This document shows, one piece after another, positions 1,554 to 25,172 of a stretch of 64,000 nt of DNA. Source of the stretch: Phycisphaerales bacterium (lineage in GTDB: Bacteria > Planctomycetota > Phycisphaerae > Phycisphaerales > SM1A02); assembly GCA_009691805.1 (NCBI GenBank), contig SIAK01000005.1:1-64000 (forward strand), written 5' to 3'. The notes below the pieces were generated by a model. That model saw only the letters and a list, made by a program, of their open reading frames with translations. It was not told where the DNA came from and searched no databases. Each line of letters opens with the position of its first letter. Within the stretch, counting starts at the first letter, position 1. A program made the position numbers and the translations under genes.

Positions 1554-3413
1554 TTACGGTTGATCCAATCGAGTCGATGGACGCGCGAGGCTCGAAGAGG
1601 TGCGCGTTGTGTTGTCGGGCAACTCAAGCACTTCGATGCGATTGACTGCAAGGCCATCGCCCATCACTTCGTGCAATCGCGCGACGGAAATTTGATACGC
1701 AGCGAGCGCGCCGACGAAAATGTTTTGGCTCTGCGCGAGTGCGTTCTGCGTTTGGAATTTCAACTGCAGGAACTCAGGGCTCAACGCCGCAAGCGTGCGC
1801 TCGTCGACAAGCAACGCACGCAAGTTCTCCGCTTGCGCGAGGCGCGTTTGTCGATTTTGTTCGACAAGTTGTCGGTAGCTCACGCAATCGATGAGCGCGT
1901 TTTTCACGGTGAGCGCAGCGTTTTGTACAGCGGTGCGATATTGAATCACCGCCTGCGATCGTTGCAGACGCGCTTGGCGATACGCGCTTTCCGCTGCGCG
2001 ATTTCCGATCGCTTGGCTGAATTGCAAACCCGCGGCGTAGTCGACGAAGTCACCGCCGCCGACCTGTCCCATGGAACTTCCAAATCCGCTCGCGAGTCCA
2101 AACCACTGCACCTGCGTCGCGAGATCGAGTTGCGGCAATCGTCCGTTGTCAGCGACTTCAACGCCGATCGACGACGAGTCGATGCCAATCAACGCACTCT
2201 CAATCGATGGCGAACATTCGAGTGCGGTCGTCAGTGACGCGCGCAAATCCGCTTGAAATGGCGTCGCGAGTGGAAAGTCGCTCGGCACGATGAGCACGTC
2301 GCCGCCGACAGGCAGTTCACTCGAATGCATGAGTGACTTCAGCGTGTTCGACGCAATCTGCACCGCGCGCTTGGCATCGAGCACTGTTGCTTTGCGTTGC
2401 TCAACAGTTGCAACGGCATTCGCGTATTCCGAAACCGTCGCGTCAAACTGCCGACGCTTCGCGAGCACTTCGCGTACTTCGGTGCCGACTTCGACAAGCC
2501 ACTGCGCCGTGACGAGCTGGTTGCGCGCTTGCACGAGCGCCCAGTAGGTGCTCTCTGTGTCGCTGACGACTTTCAAGAGTTGTGCGCGTAATGCTTGAAA
2601 CGCCGCGCGATCTTGATTCTGCGCGACGCGAATCTGCGCGAGATTCACATCCGTGCCGAAGCCGCGCAAGAGTGGCTGCGTGTAACCGAGCGAAAGCGCG
2701 GTCTGATACGCGGGGTCTGGTGTGTAGTACTCGGTGTTGAGATTGTCGATGAAATTTTCCGTGAGCCCCACGGAAAACGATCCGCCCGTCTCGAGTTGCT
2801 TCTGCAAATTCGTCGAGAGTTGCAGGGCATTCTGATTCGTCACCGACGGAATGACCGTGCCCGAGAAGCCAGGAAAAATGATCCCGACCGAAGGCTGCTC
2901 GATGCGCTGATATCCCGTCGACGCACCGAAAACCCAGTCAAACGCTGCCTCCGCTTGCACGATCTGCGCGTCCGTGACCGCCTTCTGCAGCTGCGCGTTT
3001 TGAACGGAGAGGTTGTTCGCGACCGCCGTTTGAATCGCCGTCTTCAGCGAGAGGATGACTTGGGGCGACGCGCCCGCTTGCAGCCCGTCGAGCGGAATCG
3101 ACGCATCAAGCGCCGGTCCAAGTTCGCTCATCTTCGGACCGATCGCGTCGAGTTCGACTCGGCGAGCCGCGAGCATGGTCTCAATCTCGCACTCGGTCGC
3201 ACCGATGATGGGAGCGCTGCCTGCGGGAATCTGCGCCAATTGCGCGTCAAATGAGGAGTTGACCGCCCGCTTCAGGTCCTCGCCTGGCAGTTCCGAACTG
3301 GCGGTCGTGAGTGGAGACTGGCAACCGACGAGCGCCACCGTCGCGAGCATGGTCGTCGCGAGACCGCGGACAAATGCACAGGTTTGGGAGGGCGTCGCGG
3401 AGGGGAACTTCAT
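1554..3413 (-). CDS. TolC-like outer-membrane efflux lipoprotein
   Basis: A 619-residue protein with an N-terminal signal ending in a lipobox (VALVGC, cysteine at about residue 31), so probably a lipid-anchored outer-membrane channel subunit. The body shows two copies of the long alternating helical pattern typical of the outer membrane efflux protein family, for example LRAQLLKVVSDTESTYWALV and YRQARLQRSQAVIQYRTAV, with repeated alanine/glutamine-rich coiled-coil segments. TolC-type proteins form trimeric barrels with a periplasmic helical tunnel for drug efflux or type I secretion. No inner-membrane pump or adaptor gene is adjacent, so the partner is unknown. It is divergent from the SH3 protein gene at 3518; the 104-base gap would hold both promoters. 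Confidence 0.87.
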   Translation of the reverse strand: MKFPSATPSQTCAFVRGLATTMLATVALVGCQSPLTTASSELPGEDLKRAVNSSFDAQLAQIPAGSAPIIGATECEIETMLAARRVELDAIGPKMSELGPALDASIPLDGLQAGASPQVILSLKTAIQTAVANNLSVQNAQLQKAVTDAQIVQAEAAFDWVFGASTGYQRIEQPSVGIIFPGFSGTVIPSVTNQNALQLSTNLQKQLETGGSFSVGLTENFIDNLNTEYYTPDPAYQTALSLGYTQPLLRGFGTDVNLAQIRVAQNQDRAAFQALRAQLLKVVSDTESTYWALVQARNQLVTAQWLVEVGTEVREVLAKRRQFDATVSEYANAVATVEQRKATVLDAKRAVQIASNTLKSLMHSSELPVGGDVLIVPSDFPLATPFQADLRASLTTALECSPSIESALIGIDSSSIGVEVADNGRLPQLDLATQVQWFGLASGFGSSMGQVGGGDFVDYAAGLQFSQAIGNRAAESAYRQARLQRSQAVIQYRTAVQNAALTVKNALIDCVSYRQLVEQNRQTRLAQAENLRALLVDERTLAALSPEFLQLKFQTQNALAQSQNIFVGALAAYQISVARLHEVMGDGLAVNRIEVLELPDNTTRTSSSLARPSTRLDQP

Positions 3414-9993: not shown

Positions 9994-10920
9994 ATGCGTT
10001 CGCACCGACTTTTTTCGCTGTGCGTCTTGACGACTTTCGCGCAATGCGCGATGGCTGTCGATCCACCGGTTGACGCCAACCCAGCGAACTTACTTGCGGG
10101 TCCGACAACAGTCGCGAGCGTGCCCGCCCCGCCGTCGTTGCTGCATCAGGACTTCGATCGTGCCTTCGAACACATCGTGGGCGAAGCTGGCATCGAAGCA
10201 ATGTTGCGCCTTCCATTGACGGAAGCGCAGAAGGCAATCGTCTCGGAGATTGCGCAAGAACGAACCGTGCAATTCAACGCGGTCGCGAAGCGTTCGTATG
10301 CGAAGCTCGTCGCGTTGCAAGGCATCGAGACGCGGCTGCAAGGACCGCCACACGAGAAGGTCCGCGCCGCTGTCGATTTGTTGCGCGGCTATCTCGCCAC
10401 ACGCAGCGTGATCCATCGCGAAAGCGCGCTCGATGCGTTGGAGAAAACCGGCGCGTTTGATGCTGCGCAACTCGCCACCGCTCGCGCGATGGTGGAGGAG
10501 TATGAGAAGGCGTTGCGTGATGAAATCGCAGCGGCGACGCCGAATCTCGAAGGCGACGAACTCGATCGACGCGTTCACATCGCACTGCTGCTTGACATCC
10601 TCAAAGACACGCTCGAGATGGAAGCGAAGACAGGTGCGGAAAGTTTCGCGCAGTTCAGCGCCGCTGTCGAATTGACGCCCGCGCAAGAAGAGCGCGTGAA
10701 GTTGATCTTCACGCCGATAGTGGTGCAAGAGTTGCAAGGCAATCGCGTCGCCGCGCTCGATCGTGTGCGTGCGCTACTTGAAGTGAGTCGTGAGTTGACG
10801 GCTGAGCAACGCGAACGCGCGTGGACGTACATTCACAATCAAGAACGCGAAGTGGAAGAGTCGAGAAAGACCACAGAGCCAGAGGCGCCAAAGCTGGACG
10901 CCATGCCTTCATCAGAGTGA
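9994..10920 (+). CDS. Exported helical protein of unknown function
   Basis: I do not recognise this family. ATG 9994 gives a signal peptide (RSHRLFSLCVLTTFAQCAMA) and a 308-residue product; the frame is also open into the preceding gene but without purpose. The mature part is nearly all charged alpha-helix rich in Ala, Glu and Arg, with segments such as EEYEKALRDEIAAATPNLEGDELDRR. This resembles periplasmic helical stress-sensor or scaffold proteins in composition only. It starts 20 bases after the gamma-lyase gene and its last 9 bases overlap the end of the convergent gene at 10912, so it may be the last gene of the sulfur operon or independent. Confidence 0.6.
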   Translation: MRSHRLFSLCVLTTFAQCAMAVDPPVDANPANLLAGPTTVASVPAPPSLLHQDFDRAFEHIVGEAGIEAMLRLPLTEAQKAIVSEIAQERTVQFNAVAKRSYAKLVALQGIETRLQGPPHEKVRAAVDLLRGYLATRSVIHRESALDALEKTGAFDAAQLATARAMVEEYEKALRDEIAAATPNLEGDELDRRVHIALLLDILKDTLEMEAKTGAESFAQFSAAVELTPAQEERVKLIFTPIVVQELQGNRVAALDRVRALLEVSRELTAEQRERAWTYIHNQEREVEESRKTTEPEAPKLDAMPSSE

Positions 10921-11724
10921 CGTGTTCCATCGACCATCGCGCCACGATGCCATCTTGGGATCGACGCGAAACAGCGCACCCAAATCAGACACATCGATTT
11001 CAAGGAGCGGCGCGCCGTTCGTGACCGCAAGATCGATGGAAACCGCGCGCGGCGAAGGTGTCAGCAGCGCCGCTTCAAGCAACAACATGCGGCGCAATGC
11101 GGCGTTGTCGAGCGTGGGACGAGCGCCGCCACGCAGCGCGCGGCATTCACGCACGAATCCTTCGCTGCCTCCAGGAATCATGCCGTCATAGTCTTCGAGC
11201 AACGACTCCGCGTCCGCCGCGCGCAACGTCGAGAGCGCGAGTGGACCCTTTCCCAATCGATAGAACGAGAGCGCGCGAGAAAGTGCGAGCGCCTTCGCCG
11301 CATCGACAGCACCAACCGGACGTTCATATCGCACGCCTCCAAGGAGCGCGGCTGCAGCCTGCATGCGTCGCGCTTCAAGCGGCGTCGTTGCGATGGAAGC
11401 GCGCGCGAGTGCGGCGCTTCTGCCCAATCGATCACGATCGAGTGCACCCGCGAGCCCGAACAATTCACGCGCGAGTTGGCGCTCGGCATCGGTCGTTGCC
11501 GCATCCACAACTTCCTCGCCAAGGAGAAAATAATCAAACGGTCGGGTGGGATCAAGCGTTGTGAGTCGCGCATCCCATCGCGCTGTTGGACGCGTTGCGG
11601 GAACCACCGGTGCTGCACTCGTTGCTTGCGCTCTGGCAATGTCGCACACAGCGCATAGAGCGCACAACGCGATCAAGAGTGTCCATGTCATGGATGTGGA
11701 TGTGGATGCGAATGATGCTCTCAT
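10912..11724 (-). CDS. Exported protein of unknown function, last gene of the ExbB/ExbD operon
   Basis: A 270-residue protein with an N-terminal signal peptide (SMTWTLLIALCALCAVCDIARAQA). The mature part is Ala/Leu/Arg-rich and helical and matches no family that I can name. A short conserved-looking stretch is PFDYFLLGEEVVDAA; the C-terminal end contains LLEIDVSDLGALFRVDP. The start overlaps the stop of the 1003-residue gene by 4 bases, so it belongs to the operon that begins at 21201. It probably acts outside the cytoplasmic membrane together with the upstream large proteins. Confidence 0.65.
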   Translation of the reverse strand: MRASFASTSTSMTWTLLIALCALCAVCDIARAQATSAAPVVPATRPTARWDARLTTLDPTRPFDYFLLGEEVVDAATTDAERQLARELFGLAGALDRDRLGRSAALARASIATTPLEARRMQAAAALLGGVRYERPVGAVDAAKALALSRALSFYRLGKGPLALSTLRAADAESLLEDYDGMIPGGSEGFVRECRALRGGARPTLDNAALRRMLLLEAALLTPSPRAVSIDLAVTNGAPLLEIDVSDLGALFRVDPKMASWRDGRWNTSL

Positions 11725-14700
11725 GCAGCGTCCTCTCGTGCTACGGCTTCCGCTTCAACATTCACCATCGCCACGCGTGCAAATCCGATCAGTGTCAGCG
11801 CGAGTTGCGCCGACGCGCTTTGTGCGGTGCTTCGCGCAAGAGCGGTCTGCGCGAGAATCTCGCGAATTGCAGGGATCGCAATCGGTCGGCGCGCGCCTTC
11901 AATTGCCGCTGCTTGCTCAAGCAGCGATGCCGCGTCGGCGACCGCGCGCTGCATCGCACCCTCGGCGAGTCCACGCCGTGCAATACGCAATCGTTCAAGC
12001 TCCCCTTGTGGTGCGGGGAATGGTTCGGCGAGGAACTGCTCCTCCGCCGCCACACGCAACGCGCCCGCAAGCGCGGCGATGGAGCCATCGAGCGTCGGCG
12101 CAATGTCCGATGCCGCAACGCTCGGCGCGTAGCGCAGCGTCAATGCTCCCGCGCTCGCGGCAACGCGCGCCGCGAGCCGATCCACTGCAGCTTCGCGACT
12201 CGATTCAAGCGAGAGAATGCGCTCGACCAACGCAACTCGCGCAGATGGAATCCAATCTCGACCTGTGAACTCTCGGTTCAAGAGTGCGGCGAGAAACCCA
12301 GCAGTTTCTTCGCGAGGCTTCGACTCTGAGAGCACGTCAAGCACCGCGAGCAACACAGTCTTACCACTCGCAAACTTCTCCGCGATCGCGCCCTGCGCAC
12401 CGCGTCGTGTATCAGTGGCATTCCCCTGAAACGCTTCGCGCGCGAGCACTTCAGCATCACGAGGACCAAGGTCGCCCGCTGCAGGCAGTGCGCGCAACGC
12501 CGCGATAAGTTTCTCTCGGTCGTCGACATTGGCACCAGCGCGCGTGAACTCCGCCGCCCAATCACCATCATTGAATCCCGATGGCCGCAGTCCACTGTCT
12601 CCTGAGAACGGCGCTTCAAGTGCTTTCCGTTCCAGCTTCAAACAGTCCGTCGCAACTTCGAGTGCACGGTCCCCGTCTGATGATTTGCCCGCTTCGAAGA
12701 GCCGCACTGCAAGCACGAGTTGAAGCGCGCCATCCGCAATCGCGAGCGCTTCCACATCATCCTGCGGGCGCGCGGCGTGCGTGCCAAGCTCTCCAATCGT
12801 TGATCGCATCAACTCGACTGTGCTGCCCGCAAACGCGAGGCTCTCACCCTGCTCGCCTGGCTCTGCCTTCGGCCACGCTGCGAGAATGCGTTGCAGGGAC
12901 GCATCACGACGCGATGCATTCGCGTCCACAGGAAGCACCATCTCCGGCGAGAACCACGCGATGCGATGGTTGCGATCGAGCATGCTCGTGAACACCCAGA
13001 GTCGCGTAGGCGCGATCGTCGAAGTTGCAAACCACGAACCAAATGCAGTGCGCGCTTGATCGCCCGACGCGCCGCGATTCGACCAATCAATGTCGGTGAT
13101 CAGTCGACCCAACACATCGCTCGCAGCATTCTGCAAATCGATGGGCGCTACGTTCTGCAGAATTGCCTCGATCGCCGCAAGTCGCGCGGACTCACGCAAC
13201 TTCGCGGTGCTTCCCGCAGCATCCACCGCGTCAAGCCAACGCGACCAATCATCGAGCGTCGTAGATCCGGTGCCTGTCGTGGTCGCATCCGCAAGCATGG
13301 AAACGGCGCGCGTCAAACTCGCAATCGCGGCTGCGCCAAATCGATCCACACCGCTACCTGCAGGGATCGCCACACCATCGCGACGCAGTGATTCACGCGC
13401 TGCACTCGCGACCTCTCCACCGACTTCAGGATCGCGCACAATTTCCGCCGTCAAACCCGCGGCACATGCTTCTAACCAAACGCGTTTCCATTGCGGCGGT
13501 GGCTCTGTTGGAAGGTTCGAGTCTGGAAGTCCGTGCAACGCGAGCAAGAATGTGTGCGCGCTCTCTTCGCCGCGCACCGCGCGACCGACTTGCACCACCG
13601 CACTGATGAACTCCGCGCGAAATGCGCCTGAGACCGCCCAAGATTCTCCCGCGCCTCGCATCCATGTCGCAAGCGATGCAGCGTGCGCGCCCGAGAGTCG
13701 ACCGCGATTGGTCTTCAATGCGCGCGCGAGCCCATCCAATTCCGTCAGATACTCAGGCCACTGATTCGCCAACTGCACCGTCGCCGGAGGCGTTGCACTC
13801 GATGCAAATCCTGGCGCACGGCCGTACTTCGCAGGCGCCGCGAGCGCTTCAATGTTGTTGTCTGGAGGCGCAAACTTCTGCGCAAGCAGTGCAGCGGCGC
13901 GTTCCCGCTGCGTCGATGCATCGTCGACGATGACGACGGGTGGTGGAGGCGCGCCGTCATTCGTGTTCGCGTCGTTGCCCTTCTCGACACCGCTGACGAT
14001 CATCCACACAATCGCGAGCGTGCATGCAACGGAACCAATGCCGAAGAACGCCGCCAGTCGCACTGAAGACCAAGGAGATCGACCGCGCATCTCATCACCG
14101 ATGGAGTCGACGATCTTGTCCACAACGACTTCCGCGCGATTCGATTTCTTCGGTTGTCGCGCGTGCAGTTGATCGATCGAAACGACGACGCTCGCAAAAT
14201 CACTGCGCACTGCAGCGGCGCCACCCTCGCGCATGAACTTCGCAAGTCCCGCAACAACGCGCTGCAATCCTTCATTGCTCACGCCATGTTCAGCACTCAC
14301 AGCAGCAAGTTGCATTGCTGTCTTTGGATTCCATCCGCCGCCCGCAACCAAGATCGTCAGCACAACGCGATCAAACTCCGTCAAGTTCTCTTCATTGACA
14401 ACAGACTTCGGTCGCGTGGGCGGAACACCACCGCTTGTGCGTGACGCGCTCTCGATGCGAAGCTTCGCCATCGGATGCATCGGCGTCGTGTTTGGTTCGC
14501 GCGTCAACGAAATCTCTAACTCGATTTCGCGTGCGAAGTTTTCGAGTTGCTGCACTGCGCGTCCGGCATCCGGCGAATCCGCGAGCGGGTGGTTGCGTAC
14601 TTGCTCGACGCGACGCGCGAGCGCTGCTTCCACTCCAGCGATGGTGATCGGACCCTGTGCAAGACCGAGCATGCCACGCGCGCTTCGATCGCTGCCCACT

Positions 14701-14732
14701 GCAATGAATCGTTCAATCGGAGTGAGGCTCAT
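11721..14732 (-). CDS. Large single-pass membrane protein of unknown function
   Basis: 1003 residues, no recognised family. The first ~225 residues are predicted cytoplasmic. They contain a small helical module (FIAVGSDRSARGMLGLAQGP, ~9-28), a proline/charged linker, and a second helical module around 117-167 (LTEFDRVVLTILVAGGGWNP). One transmembrane helix follows at ~227-247 (LAAFFGIGSVACTLAIVWMI). The remaining ~750 residues would lie outside the membrane and are alpha-helical, Ala/Arg/Leu-rich and repeat-like. The topology (small cytoplasmic part, one helix, huge periplasmic part) suits a structural scaffold working with the ExbB/ExbD motor. It overlaps its neighbours by 4 bases on both sides. 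Confidence 0.68.
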   Translation of the reverse strand: MSLTPIERFIAVGSDRSARGMLGLAQGPITIAGVEAALARRVEQVRNHPLADSPDAGRAVQQLENFAREIELEISLTREPNTTPMHPMAKLRIESASRTSGGVPPTRPKSVVNEENLTEFDRVVLTILVAGGGWNPKTAMQLAAVSAEHGVSNEGLQRVVAGLAKFMREGGAAAVRSDFASVVVSIDQLHARQPKKSNRAEVVVDKIVDSIGDEMRGRSPWSSVRLAAFFGIGSVACTLAIVWMIVSGVEKGNDANTNDGAPPPPVVIVDDASTQRERAAALLAQKFAPPDNNIEALAAPAKYGRAPGFASSATPPATVQLANQWPEYLTELDGLARALKTNRGRLSGAHAASLATWMRGAGESWAVSGAFRAEFISAVVQVGRAVRGEESAHTFLLALHGLPDSNLPTEPPPQWKRVWLEACAAGLTAEIVRDPEVGGEVASAARESLRRDGVAIPAGSGVDRFGAAAIASLTRAVSMLADATTTGTGSTTLDDWSRWLDAVDAAGSTAKLRESARLAAIEAILQNVAPIDLQNAASDVLGRLITDIDWSNRGASGDQARTAFGSWFATSTIAPTRLWVFTSMLDRNHRIAWFSPEMVLPVDANASRRDASLQRILAAWPKAEPGEQGESLAFAGSTVELMRSTIGELGTHAARPQDDVEALAIADGALQLVLAVRLFEAGKSSDGDRALEVATDCLKLERKALEAPFSGDSGLRPSGFNDGDWAAEFTRAGANVDDREKLIAALRALPAAGDLGPRDAEVLAREAFQGNATDTRRGAQGAIAEKFASGKTVLLAVLDVLSESKPREETAGFLAALLNREFTGRDWIPSARVALVERILSLESSREAAVDRLAARVAASAGALTLRYAPSVAASDIAPTLDGSIAALAGALRVAAEEQFLAEPFPAPQGELERLRIARRGLAEGAMQRAVADAASLLEQAAAIEGARRPIAIPAIREILAQTALARSTAQSASAQLALTLIGFARVAMVNVEAEAVAREDAA

Positions 14733-17401
14733 GTCGAACCCTCCGTTGTTGCAGTGCTCTTGGCCCGTGCTTCGACTTCGAGCGCCTCAAACTTCGCCTT
14801 CCATTCGCCTGGCCCAAGATCGGGGTGCAGTTTGCGATGCTGCTCAAGCACGGCGAGACTGCGATCGGCATCGAGCAACAAGAGCACGCGCGCAAGATCG
14901 TACTTCGCGCGAAACCAAGGCGCGGTTCGTGAAGGAATACCCGCCACGAGTCCCTTGAGTTGCTCAATCGCAATCTCGTACTGACCCGAACTCTCCGCGA
15001 AGAATGCCGCCGATTGCAGCACACCTGCTTCGCGATTGCCCGCAGCGATCAACGCTTGCGCAACGACGAGTCCTGCTTTCGCATCTTCAGGTGAAGCACT
15101 CGAAGTCACCATCTCTTTGCGTGCATCGAGCAGCGTGCGAAGGAAACCAATCGATGCAGGCGATTTCGCCGCAGCATCCAAACCACCCGCGCGAGCGATG
15201 AGTGCATCTGCGGCACGCACACTTGTGCCAACGAATGCGCTTCGTCGCGGATCATCCTTCGCCGTCGCGCGTCGCGCGATCTCCGCGCCGCGCAATGCAA
15301 GACGCAGCGAAGCATCCGCCCAAATCGCGGTGGCGTTGGGCAACTCGAACTGCGCAAGCCCACTCTCGACAAGCTCCCACTGATTCTGCATGATCGCCAA
15401 CTGCAATCGTCGGTACGCCAATTCTTCGCGAGCTTCGGAGAGTTCAAACGCACCAGCGAGCACCGCCGCATCAATCGCGCCGAGCAGATGCGCCGCAAGT
15501 GCGGTGTCCGTCACTTCATGCGCGAGCGCGACTTCAAGCGCCTGCCGCGCGATGCCAACACTTCCGCCAGGGAGCGCTTCCGCGCCCGCCTTCTCAGGCA
15601 AGGTTGGAAGCACGCCGATGTATCGTCGGCCGAGCGCCGTGCGATCCGCAGCGATAGTCGCAGCGCGGAAAGATCTATAGAGCCCGCCGAGAGCAGCACG
15701 ACGCGAAGCCTCGAAGGTAGGCTCGGTGCTCGGCACTGCAAGTAGTTTCTCGATGTCCGCGATGTCAGGTAATGGATCCGCTTGTACGCGACGCACGAAG
15801 AGTTCAATGACTCGCATCGAAGCGGGAAAGCGGCGCAAGAACGCGTCGCTCAGACTCGCGATTTGCGCATCCAGCGCTGTGCGTTCTGCGCCCTGCATCG
15901 TGCGTGAGAGTTCGTCTAGACAAGAAATCGCCGCCCAGGCAGCGTTTTCACCACGCTCGCCTGTCAGCGTCGTCGCGACTTCGTCGAATGCAGCAGCCGC
16001 CGCGCGATACTCGCGCGCGCCACGCAGGCTGTACGCGCGCATGAGTTTGCAACCATCGCGAGCCTCGGGATATTTTTCCGCGTCCTCCGCAGCGAGTGCT
16101 GCATCAAGCACCTTGAGCGCTTCGCGATTCACACGCATCGCGTTGTCCGCCATTGCAGAATCAACCGTCGCACCTCGATCGCGTGCCGCGGCAAGCGCGT
16201 CATCCGTCGCGCGCGCCGCGTCGTACTGCGTCAGCGACGCAACGTAGCGTGCGACGAATCCATCGCCTTCGAGTCCGCGACCATTGAACTGCTCGACGAT
16301 GTCCCGCACTTGCGCGAGCTCACGGCGCGTCGCAAGTTGCGCGAGCGCTTCCTTCGCGAGTGTGAGTGCTGCGGCATCATCATTCGCTGCACGAAGTCCG
16401 CCTGCTGCGGCCACGCGATACCAAGCGGTTTCGGCGCCGTCTTGCGTCGCGAGTACCTTCAAGATCTTGCGCGCTGCAGCCCAATCCTTCGCACGCACTG
16501 CTGTCGCCAAACGCCAACCATCGAGTCTGGTCCGCAGCCCTTCATAGGCTCCTGCGACTTCAAGCAGGTTCAACCATCGTGTCGCTTCGCCATAACCTTG
16601 CGTCTCAGCCTTTGCGAGCCCAAGCCCAAGAATCGTTGATGCAAACGCTTCTTCGCCGCGCAAATCGAGCGACACTTCACCTGGTTCGAGGCGGCCATTC
16701 CGAGCGCCCGCGATTTCCATAAAAATCTGCGCCGCGGTTTCAGCGTCGGAGATCGTGTCGCTCAACTGACCTTTGTACAGATGCGCCCAACCGCGAAGAA
16801 ATCGACACTGTGTCGCGATCATCTCCGCACGCTGAATATCCGCGCGCGCGAGATCCTGCGTCAATCCAACCAGCGAATCCATGCGCCGATCAAGATCCCG
16901 CGCGCTCTTGAGCGATTGCGTCTGCAATCGTTCAAGCACCGGCAGCGCAAGCGCAAGTTCCGCCAACGCGATCGATGTCGCGTCGGCCTTGCCTCGCACC
17001 GCTGCGCGCATGTCCTCCGCAATCTCGGCGGCAGTTCGATAGTGCGCGCGTGCGATCGCGAGATCGAGCCACCGCGCCGCGTCGCCATCATTCTCGCCAA
17101 GTGCTGCGCCCGCGCGCACGACTAAAGTTTCTCGTTCAGCACCGCGCGCGGAAAGGTCAAGCAGCCGCGCGTAGGTGGAACTCAACCGCTCGCGCACGCG
17201 CTTGAGTTCTTCACCTGTCGTGTCCTTGGTGAGCAACTCGAGCCGCGTCGCAAGCAGACCATCGAGGTTGTGTGCTTCAAGCCAATCGGCGAGTTCGTCG
17301 CCGCGCGCGGGTGCTGCGAGCATGACGAACGCGACGCTCCAGAGAGCGAAGTGTCGGCAAAGTGTTGATCGGGCGCGAAGTCGCATCGGGTTCTCAATCA
17401 A
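14729..17401 (-). CDS. Large secreted helical-repeat (TPR-like) protein
   Basis: 890 residues beginning with a signal peptide (MRLRARSTLCRHFALWSVAF, then LAAPARGDE, cleavage near residue 34). The mature chain is a long series of paired amphipathic helices with TPR-like spacing, for example REYRAAAAAFDEVATTLTGE and ARVLLLLDADRSLAVLEQHR at the C-terminus. TPR proteins usually hold multi-protein complexes together. No catalytic motif is visible. The gene shares 4-base overlaps with exbD upstream and with the 1003-residue gene downstream, so its product is very likely made in fixed proportion to the proton-channel subunits. A start at the second methionine (MRLRARS, 17386) is possible and would leave the signal peptide intact. 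Confidence 0.7.
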   Translation of the reverse strand: MIENPMRLRARSTLCRHFALWSVAFVMLAAPARGDELADWLEAHNLDGLLATRLELLTKDTTGEELKRVRERLSSTYARLLDLSARGAERETLVVRAGAALGENDGDAARWLDLAIARAHYRTAAEIAEDMRAAVRGKADATSIALAELALALPVLERLQTQSLKSARDLDRRMDSLVGLTQDLARADIQRAEMIATQCRFLRGWAHLYKGQLSDTISDAETAAQIFMEIAGARNGRLEPGEVSLDLRGEEAFASTILGLGLAKAETQGYGEATRWLNLLEVAGAYEGLRTRLDGWRLATAVRAKDWAAARKILKVLATQDGAETAWYRVAAAGGLRAANDDAAALTLAKEALAQLATRRELAQVRDIVEQFNGRGLEGDGFVARYVASLTQYDAARATDDALAAARDRGATVDSAMADNAMRVNREALKVLDAALAAEDAEKYPEARDGCKLMRAYSLRGAREYRAAAAAFDEVATTLTGERGENAAWAAISCLDELSRTMQGAERTALDAQIASLSDAFLRRFPASMRVIELFVRRVQADPLPDIADIEKLLAVPSTEPTFEASRRAALGGLYRSFRAATIAADRTALGRRYIGVLPTLPEKAGAEALPGGSVGIARQALEVALAHEVTDTALAAHLLGAIDAAVLAGAFELSEAREELAYRRLQLAIMQNQWELVESGLAQFELPNATAIWADASLRLALRGAEIARRATAKDDPRRSAFVGTSVRAADALIARAGGLDAAAKSPASIGFLRTLLDARKEMVTSSASPEDAKAGLVVAQALIAAGNREAGVLQSAAFFAESSGQYEIAIEQLKGLVAGIPSRTAPWFRAKYDLARVLLLLDADRSLAVLEQHRKLHPDLGPGEWKAKFEALEVEARAKSTATTEGST

Positions 17402-17811
17402 TGAAACGGAACGTACGTCACACTCGTGTATCCAGCATCATGCGCAGCCTGCACCGCTGTTGCTGCAAATCCAAAGTCGACACCATCACGGACTCGTACA
17501 AAGACGCTGTCTTCGGGGTTGAGTGCGCGCAACGCTTCCGTCAGCGACGCTTTATCCATGTAGGTTGCTCCGCCGATGCGATACAGCCGCACGCCGCCTT
17601 CTTCGAGCACGTCGACATTCTGTGGTTCAAGATCCGTGCGTCGCTCACTGCCTCGCTGCGTGGCGAGATTGGGATCGAGTTGCGCCTCGCGCGACGATGC
17701 GGATTGCGTGAAGATGAAGTAGCTCAGCAGCAAAAATGTCGCGTCAATCATCGCCGCGAGGTTGATCTCGGGCTTGCGATCCCGTTCGCTGCTCACACGA
17801 CGAAATCTCAT
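17398..17811 (-). CDS. exbD: ExbD/TolR-family proton-channel subunit (second copy)
   Basis: 137 residues: a short cytoplasmic N-terminus, one transmembrane helix (~18-36, INLAAMIDATFLLLSYFIFT) and a periplasmic domain of ~95 residues. The proton-carrying aspartate of the ExbD/TolR/MotB family is at position 23 in the sequence MIDATFLL. The periplasmic part ends with AVQAAHDAGYTSVTYVPFH, matching the family's C-terminal strand. It differs clearly from the upstream ExbD, so the pair could form a heterodimer in the ExbB pore, as in systems that use one TolQ and two different TolR proteins. Start and stop overlap the neighbours by 4 bases. Confidence 0.88.
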   Translation of the reverse strand: MRFRRVSSERDRKPEINLAAMIDATFLLLSYFIFTQSASSREAQLDPNLATQRGSERRTDLEPQNVDVLEEGGVRLYRIGGATYMDKASLTEALRALNPEDSVFVRVRDGVDFGFAATAVQAAHDAGYTSVTYVPFH

Positions 17812-18236
17812 TTCGCACCGCCTTCGGTCGCAACGCGCACCGCAATGATGCCCGCTTGCGAGAGCCGCTCAAGCACATCGTTGATGAGATCTGTCCGCGC
17901 CTCGCGATCGGCGCGCACGAGTGGGCGCAATTTCGTCACGCCTCCTTCGGTCTTCGCAGCTGCCTCCGCGACAAGTTCACCGATGCGGTCGAGCGACACC
18001 ACATGCTCATTCACCACGATGCTGCCATCCGCAAGCACATTGAGCACCACACCCGCTTGTTCATTGGTGCGGACCTCTTGCCCTGGCTCCTTCGGCAATG
18101 CCATTTCGGTGCGTGCTTGTTGCGCGGCTTGGCCCGTGACGAGAAAGAAAATCAGCAACTGAAAGACGATATCGATCAGTGGCGTCATGTCGACCACTGC
18201 ACTGCGGAAAGAATTGTTGCGAGTAGCGAATCGCAT
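17808..18236 (-). CDS. exbD: ExbD/TolR-family proton-channel subunit (first copy)
   Basis: 142 residues with the canonical architecture: basic N-terminus, transmembrane helix with the essential aspartate (Asp22 in DMTPLIDIVFQLLIFFLVT), and a periplasmic domain with VVLNVLADGSIVVNEHVV and a terminal VLERLSQAGIIAVRVATE segment. ExbD dimers sit inside the ExbB pentamer and couple proton entry to movement of a periplasmic partner. The gene starts 23 bases after exbB and overlaps the second exbD by 4 bases. Confidence 0.92.
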   Translation of the reverse strand: MRFATRNNSFRSAVVDMTPLIDIVFQLLIFFLVTGQAAQQARTEMALPKEPGQEVRTNEQAGVVLNVLADGSIVVNEHVVSLDRIGELVAEAAAKTEGGVTKLRPLVRADREARTDLINDVLERLSQAGIIAVRVATEGGAK

Positions 18237-18259
18237 GAGCAGGCATCTCGATCAGAACT

Positions 18260-18973
18260 TCAAACGCGCGTGACCTTGTTCTTGCTGGAACTCTCGATGA
18301 GCGCAACAACTTCTTCCATCTCCACCGCCGCATCACCCGCCAGTCGATCCACTCGATTGCGGAAGAAGCTGTAGAGGGTGACGCACGGAATTGCGACGAC
18401 CAAGCCTTGGAACGTCGTGATGAGCGCGATCGCGATGTTGTAGGCGAGTGCTTCGTAGTACGTTGAATCATGCGCCGCGCTCGACGCGACGGTTTCAAAC
18501 GCGCCAATCATGCCTTGCACGGTGCCGAGCAATCCCAGCAGCGGACCAACCGACCCAATCACGCCGATCACATCCATCGTGCGGTAGAGCCGCGCGGTCT
18601 GCTCGATGCCACTCTCTTCAAGTGCGCTCTTCATTTCGAACGCGCCAAACGGAGAAGCGATGAATCGCTTGAGCCCTGGTGCGAGCGTGCGCAAGAAATA
18701 GCAATCGTTCGCAGGAAGTTGCGCGTACTCCAATGCGTGTTCAAGCTGCCCGCGCGCAAGCAACTCCTTCACTGCGTTGATGCGATCTCGTGGCATCTGC
18801 ACTGACGCGCGAATCTGCACGAAATGCACGATGACGAAGGCGAGTGCCACAATCGAGAGCAGCACGATGATGTAGCCAATCACGCCACCGCCCGTGATGA
18901 ACTTGAGCGCGGACGTGCCAGCGCCCTGAGCATTGGTGGTACTTGCGGCTGCTTGAAGAAGAAAGTGCGTCAT
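18260..18973 (-). CDS. exbB: MotA/TolQ/ExbB-family proton channel
   Basis: 237 residues with three predicted transmembrane helices (~30-52, ~133-155, ~175-197) and a cytoplasmic loop between the first two. The diagnostic family motif is GSVGPLLGLLGTVQGMIGAF in the second helix, followed by IAIALITTFQGLVVAIP in the third. ExbB-type pentamers form the stator of proton-driven machines (TonB, Tol-Pal, flagellar and gliding motors). The gene overlaps the preceding secreted-protein gene by 4 bases and is followed by two exbD genes. The N-terminal ~25 residues are Ala/Thr-rich and could be a short periplasmic extension. Confidence 0.93.
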   Translation of the reverse strand: MTHFLLQAAASTTNAQGAGTSALKFITGGGVIGYIIVLLSIVALAFVIVHFVQIRASVQMPRDRINAVKELLARGQLEHALEYAQLPANDCYFLRTLAPGLKRFIASPFGAFEMKSALEESGIEQTARLYRTMDVIGVIGSVGPLLGLLGTVQGMIGAFETVASSAAHDSTYYEALAYNIAIALITTFQGLVVAIPCVTLYSFFRNRVDRLAGDAAVEMEEVVALIESSSKNKVTRV

Positions 18974-20112
18974 GGAGTTTGCTTCCTATCCGATTCCGTT
19001 GCAGTCGCTGCGGCTGCTGATTTCTGTTTGGAGTCTGTGAAAAACGGGTCGCCATCGTAACTCGCGCCGATACGCTCAATCGTGGACGCGCTCTTCGCAT
19101 CGCCGCGTTCGCGACACGCTGCGGCTGCTTCGTGGAGTGCCAATCGACCGAGCGCTGTATTGCCCTGCGTTGCGGCCACGCTGAGGAGTTCAAGCGTTCC
19201 CTCTTCACGCGCGGACGATTCCGCGCGTTGCACCAAGGCACGACCGATTGTCATCGATCGCCACGCAAGCAATTCGCGCGGCGCGTCGCCGCCGCCTGAA
19301 GTTCGCGCAAGCGCGAGAAATCCATCGGCGAGTTTCTTGCGCTCGCGATCATCCGTTGCAAGCGCGAGCTCTTCAAGTGAGGCAAGGAGTTGCTCACCGA
19401 GCGGCGCATCGCTTGCAAGTGCGACATGCTGAGGCGCGTTGCGCAAGAGGCGTGCGAATCGCTGCGCCATCAATGCTGTTTTTGTTGCCTCGCGCGCCGC
19501 ACTGTCCAGTGCTTCGGCTGCGCGAGTGGCAGTCTCATCCGCCGCAAAGGGAGTGATTCCGCTCGAGAAAAGCGTGGACGGCTCGAGCACCCCGGGCAAC
19601 GAGGCAAAGGGCGCGTCCGCCGATGTTGCGTGCGTTGCAGCGTTCTCCGCCACGATGATCCACGGCTCAAGCGCGCCCACCATGTCGCCGCGCGCGAGTG
19701 CGCAGCGCAACAAACCTTCTGCCGTGATCGACGCGAGATCACCTTTGTGAACACGCATCGAACCCCACACTTCGCGCAGCAACGGCTCGGCAAGTTCGTA
19801 GTCGCCGCGCAGGAGTCGCATGCGCCCGCGCCAGAGCGTTTCGCCCCCCTTCAATTGCGCGTCGATGTTGGCAGGCGCAGTTGTGCCGCGCACCGCACGC
19901 ACTTGATCCCATCGCACAAACTGATCGACTCCATCAACGCGCTTCACGCGCAACCCAGATTCTTCGACGATCGCTGACGATCCTTCGAGCAGCGCCGCGC
20001 CATCTCGCAAGTCGAGTTGCACATCGGCACTCGCGAGTTGCAGGCAAGCACACGCCGCACTCAGCGCAAGCAGTGCGCGTGAAACTCGAAGTGATGCGGA
20101 GGAGTCATGCAT
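18970..20112 (-). CDS. Secreted protein of unknown function upstream of exbB
   Basis: 380 residues with a signal peptide (LRVSRALLALSAACACLQLASA, cleavage near residue 29). The first ~50 mature residues form a small beta-rich segment (VQLDLRDGAALLEGSSAIVE, then VDQFVRWDQVRAVRG). The rest is helical and repeat-like: FLALARTSGGGDAPRELLAW, TQGNTALGRLALHEAAAACR. No named family is recognised. The start lies 45 bases after the stop of the VWA/TonB-like gene and the stop overlaps exbB by 4 bases, so it is part of the same operon and likely a periplasmic component of the same machine. Confidence 0.66.
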   Translation of the reverse strand: MHDSSASLRVSRALLALSAACACLQLASADVQLDLRDGAALLEGSSAIVEESGLRVKRVDGVDQFVRWDQVRAVRGTTAPANIDAQLKGGETLWRGRMRLLRGDYELAEPLLREVWGSMRVHKGDLASITAEGLLRCALARGDMVGALEPWIIVAENAATHATSADAPFASLPGVLEPSTLFSSGITPFAADETATRAAEALDSAAREATKTALMAQRFARLLRNAPQHVALASDAPLGEQLLASLEELALATDDRERKKLADGFLALARTSGGGDAPRELLAWRSMTIGRALVQRAESSAREEGTLELLSVAATQGNTALGRLALHEAAAACRERGDAKSASTIERIGASYDGDPFFTDSKQKSAAAATATESDRKQTP

Positions 20113-20157
20113 GGGAGGAGAAGTCCGGTGAGGTCAAACGGTTCATGTTCGGCGCGT

Positions 20158-21201
20158 TCAAGGTCCTGCTGGAATCGTGATGCGAACACCGCCCGTCACA
20201 GGGACATATCGAAAAACGCCCTCGTTTTCTCGTGCAATCTCCTCAAGTCCCGCGCGACCGGATTCCGAACCGAAACAGATTGTGTTGATGATCGACGCGC
20301 GCCGTTGCTTGTGATTGAGGCGCGTGATCTCGCTCGGACCATCTCCAGGAATCTCGCCGTCGGTGAGGAAAAAAATGACATCGGGAGATGCTGGCAATTC
20401 GAACACACGTTCGAATGAGGTCATCGGATACGTGCCGCCGCCAGGCGCTTGCTCCTCGAGCCACTTCTTCATGCGCAAGATGTTGCCCCTCGTCGCGCGA
20501 ATCCAACTCTCTTCCCAATCAGGAATGCGGCGATCGTCGGAGAAGAGCACCACGTACAGACTCGCGAAATCAGGAAGCGCCGCGATCGAGCGCTTGAGTT
20601 CGGTCATCGCAACGACAAACCGATCATCCATCTGCATGGATCCCGAAACATCGACGATGAATGCGAATCGCGTGCCGCGACCACCGACACCGAAGAAACT
20701 TGTGCCGCCACCTCCGCGACCACTTCCGATACCAATCCCCTGACCAGGTCCACTAGAACCAACGATGCCGCCAGGTCCTGGTGCTTCAATCATGCCGAAA
20801 CTATTTTGCGTGGGATCACCGCTCGCGAGATCCGCACTGAGCGCCGGAATCTCATCAGGATCAGGCATGATCTCACCCGCTGCAAGTGGAGACGGATCAG
20901 GCAGCTCGACATCTTCATTCGGCGTCACAGGTTCCTGCGCGCTCGCGAGATTGATCTCGACAGGCGCGTCCATGCGACGCTCCGCTTCCGCAGGTTGTCG
21001 ATACCACCAAAGCGAAAGCATCATGGAGATATGCACAACAAGTGAAACGGCAAACGCGAAAAGTAAAATGTGAACCCAATACTCTCGCGAGTAGCGGCGG
21101 CGCTCGAGATCCGCGGGTCGCGCGTACACAGGCGCACCACCTTGGGTCTTCACCGAAGTGGGCGCGCTGAGATCGCGAGGTTGATTTGCGGGAACTTGCA
21201 T
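20158..21201 (-). CDS. TonB-like membrane anchor fused to a von Willebrand factor A domain
   Basis: 347 residues from ATG 21201 (MQVPANQPRDL); the frame extends upstream but has no better start. Residues 1-40 are cytoplasmic. One transmembrane helix spans ~41-66 and carries Ser53-x3-His57 (VSLVVHIS), the same SxxxH spacing that TonB uses to contact ExbB/ExbD. A Pro/acidic-rich stretch (~88-130, PVTPNEDVELPDPSP) and a Gly-rich linker (~139-177) lead to a VWA domain (~178-347). Its metal site is intact: FIVDVSGSM (Asp184, Ser186, Ser188), a Thr in GGGTYPMTS, and FFLTDGEIPGDG. There is no TonB C-terminal domain. It is the first gene of an eight-gene operon containing exbB and two exbD genes. VWA domains bind protein ligands through a metal ion; ligand and role here are unknown. 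Confidence 0.82.
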   Translation of the reverse strand: MQVPANQPRDLSAPTSVKTQGGAPVYARPADLERRRYSREYWVHILLFAFAVSLVVHISMMLSLWWYRQPAEAERRMDAPVEINLASAQEPVTPNEDVELPDPSPLAAGEIMPDPDEIPALSADLASGDPTQNSFGMIEAPGPGGIVGSSGPGQGIGIGSGRGGGGTSFFGVGGRGTRFAFIVDVSGSMQMDDRFVVAMTELKRSIAALPDFASLYVVLFSDDRRIPDWEESWIRATRGNILRMKKWLEEQAPGGGTYPMTSFERVFELPASPDVIFFLTDGEIPGDGPSEITRLNHKQRRASIINTICFGSESGRAGLEEIARENEGVFRYVPVTGGVRITIPAGP

Positions 21202-21362
21202 GAAATCCCTGCTGAAAAACGCATCACCTACCCAACGTCGGGTGGTTCTGTAAGTTTCTACGAGAACGTGGATGAAGTGCGACCCGAAGCCCTGCAAAAA
21301 ATCAAGAATTCGCAGAGAATGCGATCCGCCCACGCCGCGACCAACGCCTCCGAGAATTCACC
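21202..21362. promoter_or_regulatory. Divergent promoter region, VWA/ExbB operon and pyrH
   Basis: The 161-base gap must contain the promoters of both the minus-strand VWA/ExbB/ExbD operon and the plus-strand pyrH gene. An imperfect inverted repeat (ACCTACCC at 21226-21233 facing GGGTGGT at 21240-21246) lies 25 bases before the VWA gene start and could be an operator. No convincing -35/-10 pair was found by eye on either strand. Confidence 0.35.
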
Positions 21363-22723: not shown

Positions 22724-22838
22724 GCAGTCGTCCTTGTCGCACGACTGACCTCTATCGTCGAAGACGCTCTTTCTCCACGCAGGCGTGCTCTCCTACAGAC
22801 GCCTCGTGACGATGGATTCTCTATGTTTCATGACCTTA

Positions 22839-22859
22839 TTGAGGTCGTGCACCGACCTC
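22839..22859 (+). promoter_or_regulatory. Hairpin or operator before the beta-helix protein gene
   Basis: A perfect 8-bp inverted repeat (TGAGGTCG/CGACCTCA, 5-base loop) ends 12 bases before the chosen ATG at 22872. It would sit in the 5' leader or overlap the promoter. No T-run follows, so it is more likely regulatory than a frr terminator. Confidence 0.4.
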
Positions 22860-22871
22860 AGCTCCTTCCCT

Positions 22872-25172
22872 ATGCAACCTTCCGCGCACCCACGGTTCCT
22901 CTCCTTCGTCCCTGCGAGCATTGTGTTGGCTGCGATGCTCACCACAGCCAACGCGCAGACTCCGACAATCGTTGTTGACGCAGACAACACGGTCATCACG
23001 CAGAGCGTGGCTGTTGTGCCGATTATTGGCGTGCTCATGGATACCGACTTGAATGGTGTGGTGCACGTCAAGGGTGATCCTGAAGGCAGGCCGATCACGG
23101 TTGACTTTGGTGGCGGACTTCTGCTCGGGAGCGCACTCTCCTCGGAACGATTGACCGGCATCGGCATTGTCGTCACCGGTAAGAATGTCACCCTGCGCAA
23201 CGGCAAAGTGAAGGGTTTTAAAGTCGGCATTCAGGGTGTCGGGTGCGACGGACTCGTCCTTGAAGACTTCGACACCAGCGACAATTACGCGCAGCTCTTG
23301 CAATCCAAGCCATGGAAGGAACAGGGCGCAGATTGGCTGTTTCCGCATCAAAACGATGCGGGCGAGTGGGCGCAACAGCACGGCGCTGGAGTGTCTGTTT
23401 CGAACGCGACGGGCATCACGATTCGCAACGTCACAAACCTTCGCACACAGAATGGCATTCTGCTTTCGCGCGTGAACAACTCCAAAGTCTACGACAACGA
23501 TTGTTCGTTCTTGTCAGGTTGGGGACTGGCGATGTGGCGCTCGAATCGCAACACAATCGCGCGCAACAGTTTCGACTTCTGCATTCGCGGTTACTCGAAC
23601 GGCATCTACGCGCGCGGACAAGATTCCGCTGGCATCTTGCTCTTCGAACAATGCAGCGACAACGTGCTTGCACTCAATAGCTGCACGCACTCGGGCGATG
23701 GTATCTTTGGATTTGCAGGGCGCGAAGCACTTGGCGAGAGCCCAAGCCCCGTTCCAGTCAGCGACACGAACGACCCTTACGAGTGGTATCGCGGTCGCGG
23801 CTGCAACAACAACCAAATCATTGCGAACGATCTCTCCTTCTCCTCCGCGCACGGCTTGGAGATGACGTTTAGTTTCGGCAATCAAGTGCTGCGCAATCGG
23901 TTCGAAGGCAACGGTTTCTGCGGGATTTGGGGCGGTTATTCGCGCAACACGCTCATCGCATTCAACACATTCGAAGGCAACGGCGGCGCAGGACACGGGC
24001 GCGAGCGTGGTGGCATTGCGATGGAACATGCGCAAGGCACGCAGATCGAAGACAACCAGTTTTCACTCGATGCGCAAGGCATCGCGTTCTGGATGGATGA
24101 GGACGCTGGACTTGCGAAGTTGCCTTGGGCTGCAGCGAATGGCACGGAGACGAAATCCAACCGAGTGCAATCCAACGTCTTCACGAAGGAAGATCAGGCA
24201 ATCGTGTTGATCGGCACGAGTGCGACGGTGCTCGATCACAACAAGTTTGTCGATTGCCCTGTTGAAGTCGTCGAAGAAAACGCTTCCGACACGAAACAAA
24301 GCGATGCGGGTCTCGCCTCCTGTGCGCCGACAAGTGCCGCAATCGACGCTCTGCTCGCAGCATTGCCTGGCTCACGCGCCGCAGTCGGACTTCGCGATGC
24401 GCTGCGCGGACGCGATCGCATCGTCATGCTCGATCGCGGTCCGTACATGTGGGATCGACCGATCATCGTGCGATTAAATCAGTCGCAGAACCGTGCGCAG
24501 TATGGGCTGCACGGATTTCCGAAGTTGGTTGGCGCAGACGTGCTTGGTCGAGGACCACTCTTTGTCGGAGTCGCGCGCGATGATCGCGGCGCAGAGATCG
24601 CGGCGGATCCCGCAGGCTTCGTGACCCCCTACATCCTGCAAGTTCGCGGCATTAACAAACTGAAGGTTCGACACAGCGACATCCTCGCTCCTGCGGAGTG
24701 GAAGACGCGACTCTTCGAATTGAAAAACGCCACCGGCGCGGTCGATCCAAGCAAGGATAATGCGGCGTTTCAAGCACTTTCCGCAGAACAAGAGATCGAG
24801 TTCGTCTTCCGTGAACTCTCGTTCGAGTATGGCAACGGCGCACCGCAAAACGCGATTGACGATCCTGACGTGCGCAAACTCACCCTGCCCGCCGATGGGT
24901 TCGGCATGATTGCGGAGACGACCTTGCACTTCATTCCCGGCAAGTACCGCATCCACCTCGAAACCCGCGATGCCGCTCGTCTCACGTTGGATGGACGGAT
25001 CGTGATCGATCAGTTCAGCCGCACGCAAGACAATGGCATCGTCGACGATGCGTTTGCATTTGAGATCACGGAAGAACGAGATGTTCCCATCAAGGTTGAA
25101 CACTTTGATACTGTTGGCGAAGCGCACCTGCGCATCTACTTCGAAGCGATTGACCCGATCATCAAGGGCTGA
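22872..25172 (+). CDS. Secreted right-handed beta-helix (NosD-like) protein with PA14-like C-terminus
   Basis: 766 residues from ATG 22872, which gives a clean signal peptide (PRFLSFVPASIVLAAMLTTA ending in ANAQ); in-frame upstream ATGs lack one. Residues ~90-480 show the short repeated N/G/D turns of parallel beta-helix proteins, for example NATGITIRNVTNLRTQNGIL, NNSKVYDNDCSFLSG and GNQVLRNRFEGNGFCGIWGG. This is the carbohydrate-binding/NosD type of periplasmic fold. The last ~100 residues (TLHFIPGKYRIHLETRDAAR, then LTLDGRIVIDQ, then VEHFDTVGEAHLRIYFE) fit a PA14-like carbohydrate-binding beta barrel. Polysaccharide lyase or binding activity is possible, but no catalytic residues can be assigned. 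The gene stands alone, 25 bases before nrdR. Confidence 0.78.
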   Translation: MQPSAHPRFLSFVPASIVLAAMLTTANAQTPTIVVDADNTVITQSVAVVPIIGVLMDTDLNGVVHVKGDPEGRPITVDFGGGLLLGSALSSERLTGIGIVVTGKNVTLRNGKVKGFKVGIQGVGCDGLVLEDFDTSDNYAQLLQSKPWKEQGADWLFPHQNDAGEWAQQHGAGVSVSNATGITIRNVTNLRTQNGILLSRVNNSKVYDNDCSFLSGWGLAMWRSNRNTIARNSFDFCIRGYSNGIYARGQDSAGILLFEQCSDNVLALNSCTHSGDGIFGFAGREALGESPSPVPVSDTNDPYEWYRGRGCNNNQIIANDLSFSSAHGLEMTFSFGNQVLRNRFEGNGFCGIWGGYSRNTLIAFNTFEGNGGAGHGRERGGIAMEHAQGTQIEDNQFSLDAQGIAFWMDEDAGLAKLPWAAANGTETKSNRVQSNVFTKEDQAIVLIGTSATVLDHNKFVDCPVEVVEENASDTKQSDAGLASCAPTSAAIDALLAALPGSRAAVGLRDALRGRDRIVMLDRGPYMWDRPIIVRLNQSQNRAQYGLHGFPKLVGADVLGRGPLFVGVARDDRGAEIAADPAGFVTPYILQVRGINKLKVRHSDILAPAEWKTRLFELKNATGAVDPSKDNAAFQALSAEQEIEFVFRELSFEYGNGAPQNAIDDPDVRKLTLPADGFGMIAETTLHFIPGKYRIHLETRDAARLTLDGRIVIDQFSRTQDNGIVDDAFAFEITEERDVPIKVEHFDTVGEAHLRIYFEAIDPIIKG

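Follow-up and report, generated by a model that had tools for sequence, protein, structure and literature searches.

The described systems closest to the locus reported here are force transducers carrying a vWA domain, which were predicted only in 2025 in the PVC group, where the gene for the vWA transducer accompanies tolQ, two heterologous tolR genes and one for a TPR protein (Williams-Jones et al., 2025; PMC12204202). When that core is modelled there with AF3, the vWA helix docks on the motor via a conserved His. In the available part of that report, the known partners of the transducer are the motor and the TPR gene alone, and no function is assigned. Other envelope machines share portions of this design. 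AglRQS-Glt of Myxococcus xanthus combines one MotA/TolQ/ExbB protein and two ExbD/TolR proteins (PMC4488436; PMC3169522) with a single-pass transducer and large TPR proteins. TolQRA-TolB-Pal and TonB-ExbBD employ motors of the same family and a transducer helix with an S...H motif, and in Campylobacter flagella, PflA and PflB pair up as a large TPR scaffold in the periplasm by which proton motors are positioned.

Here, we analyse a stretch of 64,000 nucleotides (the window) from contig SIAK01000005.1 of a Phycisphaerales bacterium, in which eight adjoining genes probably encode one proton-driven, force-transducing envelope machine. With the vWA family of Williams-Jones et al. (2025), the locus shares an SHLS-type membrane helix, a linker and a C-terminal vWA domain in place of the TolA/TonB domain, as well as adjoining tolQ-like, two heterologous tolR-like and TPR genes. 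It differs from that family, as described in the available part of the report, in that the vWA gene comes first rather than downstream and in three extra genes, termed here S380, M1003 and S270. In contrast to AglRQS-Glt, a vWA protein stands in for the TonB_C transducer (GltG), and no Glt relative was identified. Unlike in Tol-Pal and TonB-ExbBD, the vWA domain replaces the C-terminal domain of TolA/TonB, and the genome yields no TolB_N, TonB_C or Plug domain. Compared with PflA/PflB, to which there is a weak structural match, the motor is of the ExbBD type and the unit contains no flagellar gene.

A literature search found no publication on this gene set besides PMC12204202, and there appears to be no earlier description of the complete eight-gene machine. 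The preliminary description of the locus had called it undescribed; this appears to hold for the eight-gene form with M1003, S270 and S380, absent from the available part of that report, but not for the core, which is predicted there. The present analysis adds the larger assembly and its distribution, together with a seamless loss of the motor in nature and fusions of M1003 with S270. For vWA force transducers, the locus provides a list of candidate parts, a map of their conservation, fusions that arose naturally and a case of motor loss, and the job of vWA machines in bacteria without detectable TolB becomes directly testable.

Layout of the locus

The unit spans 10912-21333 and consists of eight ORFs, all on the minus strand, listed here in the order of transcription:

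20158-21333, minus strand: vWA protein, of 391 aa if started at GTG and 347 aa if started at an ATG at 21201
18970-20112, minus strand: S380, secreted; conservation covers a short N-terminal segment (..WDRVR..) and the rest of the protein
18260-18973, minus strand: ExbB, proton-channel subunit of the ExbB/TolQ family with three membrane helices
17808-18236, minus strand: ExbD1, subunit of the ExbD/TolR family, with its membrane aspartate in PLIDIVF
17398-17811, minus strand: ExbD2, second and anciently diverged subunit of the ExbD/TolR family, with its membrane aspartate in MIDATF
14729-17401, minus strand: T890, secreted TPR superhelix of 885-890 aa, depending on the start
11721-14732, minus strand: M1003, single-pass protein with a helical cytosolic part of about 225 residues, a membrane helix at 228-246 and an alpha-solenoid of about 750 residues on the periplasmic side
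10912-11724, minus strand: S270, small secreted protein

All eight same-strand ORFs first assigned to 10912-21201 are present on the strand given, and the far end moves to 21333 only if the vWA protein is read from GTG. The ATG at 21201 is its probable start, as the resulting 347 aa agree with most homologues. Overlaps of 4 bases join S270 to M1003, M1003 to T890, ExbD2 to ExbD1 and ExbB to S380, whereas a fifth, between T890 and ExbD2, exists only if T890 starts at TTG. Because all 23 homologues (23/23) align instead at the ATG five codons after this TTG, which is probably the true start of T890, the cautious count is four overlaps; the five of seven junctions reported earlier depend on the TTG. 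The other junctions are gaps of 23 bases (ExbD1/ExbB) and 45 bases (S380/VWA).

Pfam recognises one MotA_ExbB gene (7e-25) and two ExbD genes (6e-20 and 4e-10) in the locus, and no TonB_C domain in the vWA protein. Neither Pfam nor NCBIfam assigns S380, T890, M1003 or S270 convincingly to a family. Terminator predictions were at the level of shuffled sequence, and the promoter scan returned 5 promoter-like sites against 2.1 expected, none of them just upstream of the vWA gene on its strand. Elsewhere in the window, a right-handed beta-helix/PA14 protein of 795 aa (22785-25172) adjoins frr.

Conservation and variation of the unit

The loci of relatives were scanned with profiles of the eight families. 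The order VWA-S380-ExbB-ExbD1-ExbD2-T890-M1003-S270 recurs whole in families f1, f2, f3 and f4 of the same order, and family f63, which belongs to another class, has one complete unit (L114) and one locus (L113) in which a single-pass ORF of 1195 residues sits where M1003 would be. Of 151 genomes sampled evenly from the order, 106 have T890 and 104 have M1003. Both genes occur in 102, of which 100 have M1003 as the next gene downstream of T890, on the same strand; in the other two the M1003 match starts a separate contig. Within the order, pyrH and often frr adjoin the unit, so part of the conserved order may reflect slow rearrangement. In the f63 loci, however, the stretch fetched contains neither pyrH nor frr, and the unit is whole; it has therefore been retained in a different genomic setting. 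Syntenic homologues had been named beforehand as the test of the proposed machine, and the order shared by f1-f4 and, in another class, f63 supplies them. Judged from gene order, the eight genes are a real conserved unit whose arrangement is not chance, since order and strand are the same across the order and in another class and M1003 follows T890 almost wherever both are found. According to T890 and M1003 matches, the unit is also retained in genomes of 1.8-2.0 Mb (genus g18), from which we infer a basic role.

Smaller or diverged cassettes are found in other families. Among 244 genomes sampled across the phylum, relatives of the vWA domain occur in 196, many of them larger proteins, T890 in 33 (13 of these matches being strong and nearly full-length) and M1003 in 12. 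Family f9 (L127) carries a smaller cassette, VWA-ExbB-ExbD1-ExbD2-T890, to which f7 (L154) adds an M1003-like gene, while f30 has vWA-ExbB-ExbD-ExbD and lacks the remaining genes. In a diverged cassette of family f5 (L094, 6484-14921), the corresponding places are taken by two vWA genes, by a TPR protein of 345 aa in the S380 position, by ExbB with three ExbDs and by a TPR protein of 973 aa; another in this family (L099, 5175-10907) has two vWA and three ExbD genes around one ExbB.

The channel region of ExbB and the membrane aspartate of both ExbDs are conserved in the alignment. In a tree of 89 ExbDs (midpoint-rooted, with the labels ExbD1 and ExbD2 assigned by profile score), the two fall on opposite sides of one branch with 99/97 support. 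Both sides hold sequences from the eight-gene unit, from a further cassette in the window's own genome and from the cassettes of f5, f6 and f30. By this tree, ExbD1 and ExbD2 are clearly anciently split paralogues that are general in the planctomycete vWA-motor cassettes examined. The composition of one ExbB and two ExbDs, equated in the preliminary description with AglR/AglQ/AglS, is indeed that of AglRQS (PMC4488436). As a gliding signature it fails, since the ExbD pair is old, is found generally among these vWA motors and marks no special link to AglRQS.

The further cassette in the window's genome (G000; L089, 4714-7633, contig C54) encodes a second vWA protein with SxxxH, ExbB, ExbD1 and ExbD2. 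Two other motor loci, L093 (3908-11524, contig C19) and L092 (296-5361, contig C69), contain an ExbB-like gene and two single-helix proteins with an aspartate at the helix start (FQDVMLC, LLDPICN) and no Pfam ExbD match where scanned, and a convergently oriented gene encodes a vWA protein in which no clear membrane helix is evident. Both loci are reminiscent of the ExbD-less TolQ family in PMC12204202.

A natural loss of the motor was found in one genome (G054; L083, 7972-12898). ExbB, ExbD1 and ExbD2 are cleanly missing, VWA, S380, T890, M1003 and S270 are in place, and the stop of S380 overlaps the start of T890 (GTGA). The vWA protein of this genome still carries SxxxH, and two other ExbB-ExbD-ExbD sets are encoded elsewhere. 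Either a paralogous motor acts in trans or the system is decaying. Because the five non-motor genes are retained after the loss, they can persist without a motor of their own.

The vWA protein and the putative scaffold proteins

From a cytosolic N-terminus, the vWA protein runs through one membrane helix and a Gly/Pro-rich linker to a C-terminal vWA domain. Profile comparison matches it to solved vWA domains (E 3.7e-12), and Pfam VWA_2 scores E 0.0035, under the Pfam cut-off. In 23 aligned vWA proteins of the unit, S97 and H101 of the membrane helix (SxxxH) are invariant, as are the metal-site (MIDAS) residues D228, S230, S232, T301 and D325, so that the MIDAS is complete. The consensus has a leucine at +11, and the spacing of S, H and L is that of the TonB SHLS motif, although the second Ser (the fourth residue) of that motif is unconserved. 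A further 13 planctomycete loci, the second cassette of the window's genome among them, encode vWA proteins with SxxxH. Because the motif and the topology match the force transducers predicted in PMC12204202, the vWA protein is more likely a moving arm like TonB or TolA than the passive anchor that it was first taken to be.

T890 and M1003 agree with their first descriptions as a TPR-like secreted protein and a single-pass protein, respectively. The predicted structure of T890 is a TPR superhelix, nearly all helical (pLDDT 88.8), and a profile comparison matches it to consensus TPR proteins (E 5e-17). Among the VIA-align matches listed for it, nearly all are eukaryotic or designed TPR proteins and none is PflA. 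The one membrane helix of M1003, near residue 230, has a comparable counterpart in a similar place in 19 of 19 homologues. Its cytosolic part is helical, and its periplasmic part gives generic armadillo/HEAT-like alpha-solenoid matches (Z 7.3 or less). A J-domain or TerB-like identity of the cytosolic part, proposed by eye (HP, GGWN..HGVS), was dropped after Pfam returned one weak DnaJ match in one homologue (E 0.028). An anti-phage system was likewise rejected, the PADLOC scan giving a single chance-level match, to T890.

M1003 and S270 form one ORF in three genomes, G012, G024 and G004, with S270 at the C-terminus of M1003 (L074, 11173-15429; L105, 13425-16589; L106, 12475-14940). The fusion suits the topology, since the M1003 solenoid and S270 both lie on the periplasmic side, and these natural fusions support a physical partnership of the two proteins.

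Proposed mechanism and cellular role

In the proposed mechanism, ExbB and the ExbD1/ExbD2 pair would assemble into an ExbB-ExbD/TolQ-TolR-type motor. The vWA protein would pack its single helix on the exterior of ExbB via Ser-x-x-x-His, as in TonB and TolA, and the motor would pull the vWA arm. The vWA domain, with its complete metal site, may be the end that grips, its ligands lying either in the periplasm or at the outer membrane. A dedicated scaffold of T890, M1003 with S270, and S380 would hold the motor in position, take up the force, or do both. Motor assembly is predicted from homology and from the published AF3 models of relatives, and complex assembly and the direction of force are inferred. 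No outer-membrane protein or lipoprotein was recognised among the eight genes, and the far end of the force path is therefore missing from the unit.

An ordinary Ton or Tol system was considered and rejected for this genome. Plug (PF07715), TonB_C (PF03544) and TolB_N (PF04052) were not found in the 2.6 Mb assembly, which is about 95% complete, and positive controls were detected. TolB_N was likewise absent from all 61 genomes searched (0/61), with controls detected. The preliminary description saw no TonB-dependent receptor, Pal or TolB gene nearby; for the receptor and TolB this extends to the whole assembly, and for Pal it corresponds to no OmpA-family match by Pfam among 28 window proteins. 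Among relatives, G003, G005, G009, G050 and G058 possess the unit and lack Plug and TonB_C, while G039, G043 and G055 have TonB_C and Plug alongside T890 and M1003. Since the unit is found both with and without TonB_C/Plug, it is independent of Ton. Its synteny and the missing Ton and TolB parts uphold the earlier proposal of a dedicated proton-driven envelope machine, in the sense of one conserved unit linked to a proton motor and distinct from standard Ton or Tol.

As to what such a machine does, the leading guess is a Tol-Pal-like part in maintaining or constricting the envelope, which we put forward tentatively; it is favoured over uptake and gliding on weak grounds. A bolder version, which we regard as doubtful, is that the unit represents a separate class of envelope motor that replaces the outer-membrane pulling of Tol-Pal in planctomycetes without recognisable TolB and often without TonB. 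ExbBD energy would then pass to a metal-dependent vWA grip and on to an ordered periplasmic TPR/solenoid scaffold that reaches the cytosol via M1003. Import is commonly powered by ExbBD motors, and planctomycetes are noted for macromolecule uptake. The vWA arm might thus energise an outer-membrane channel for macromolecules in place of TonB, but this is unlikely, as the unit includes no outer-membrane receptor gene, the genome has no Plug domain, and the three relatives with both TonB_C and Plug show that the unit is no simple Ton replacement. A gliding or adhesion machine, in which the motor moves an adhesin-like vWA arm along a periplasmic TPR scaffold, would draw on a kit similar to that of Myxococcus, with its AglR, AglQ and AglS motor, TonB-like GltG and TPR proteins GltD, GltE and GltC (PMC3169522), and a gliding link is suggested for vWA transducers in PMC12204202. 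We consider gliding improbable given that a GltG-type TonB_C is absent from this genome, that none of the eight proteins (0/8) matches any gliding model that NCBIfam may include, that two ExbDs are general in planctomycete vWA motors, and that the unit is kept in the reduced genomes of genus g18.

The large helical proteins raise a different prospect, namely that T890 and M1003 arrange numerous ExbBD motors as a ring encircling some other structure. A secreted TPR superhelix and a second large helical protein resemble the PflA spoke and PflB rim (PMC12222027), and a Campylobacter periplasmic scaffold chain, 9hmf_K, is among the Foldseek matches of T890 (E 6e-5). That match is nevertheless weak (TM 0.2, rank 18) among many eukaryotic TPR proteins, and the T890 model is without the N-terminal beta-sandwich of PflA, which makes such a stator scaffold quite improbable. 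It is just as improbable that the genes share a neighbourhood and no machine, an ordinary vWA-ExbBD unit having unrelated envelope genes as travelling companions. The persistence of pyrH, and often of frr, beside the unit within the order and the five motorless genes of G054 would fit a mere neighbourhood, but f63 retains the unit away from pyrH and frr, M1003 and S270 are fused in some genomes, the genes overlap tightly, and TPR genes hold the same positions in the diverged f5 cassette L094.

Two further features were noted. A MotA/MotB pair with an OmpA domain lies near enolase (L090, 6957-8657, contig C7), and a TolC-type outer-membrane efflux protein is encoded in the window at 1554-3413, about 7 kb from the eight-gene unit.
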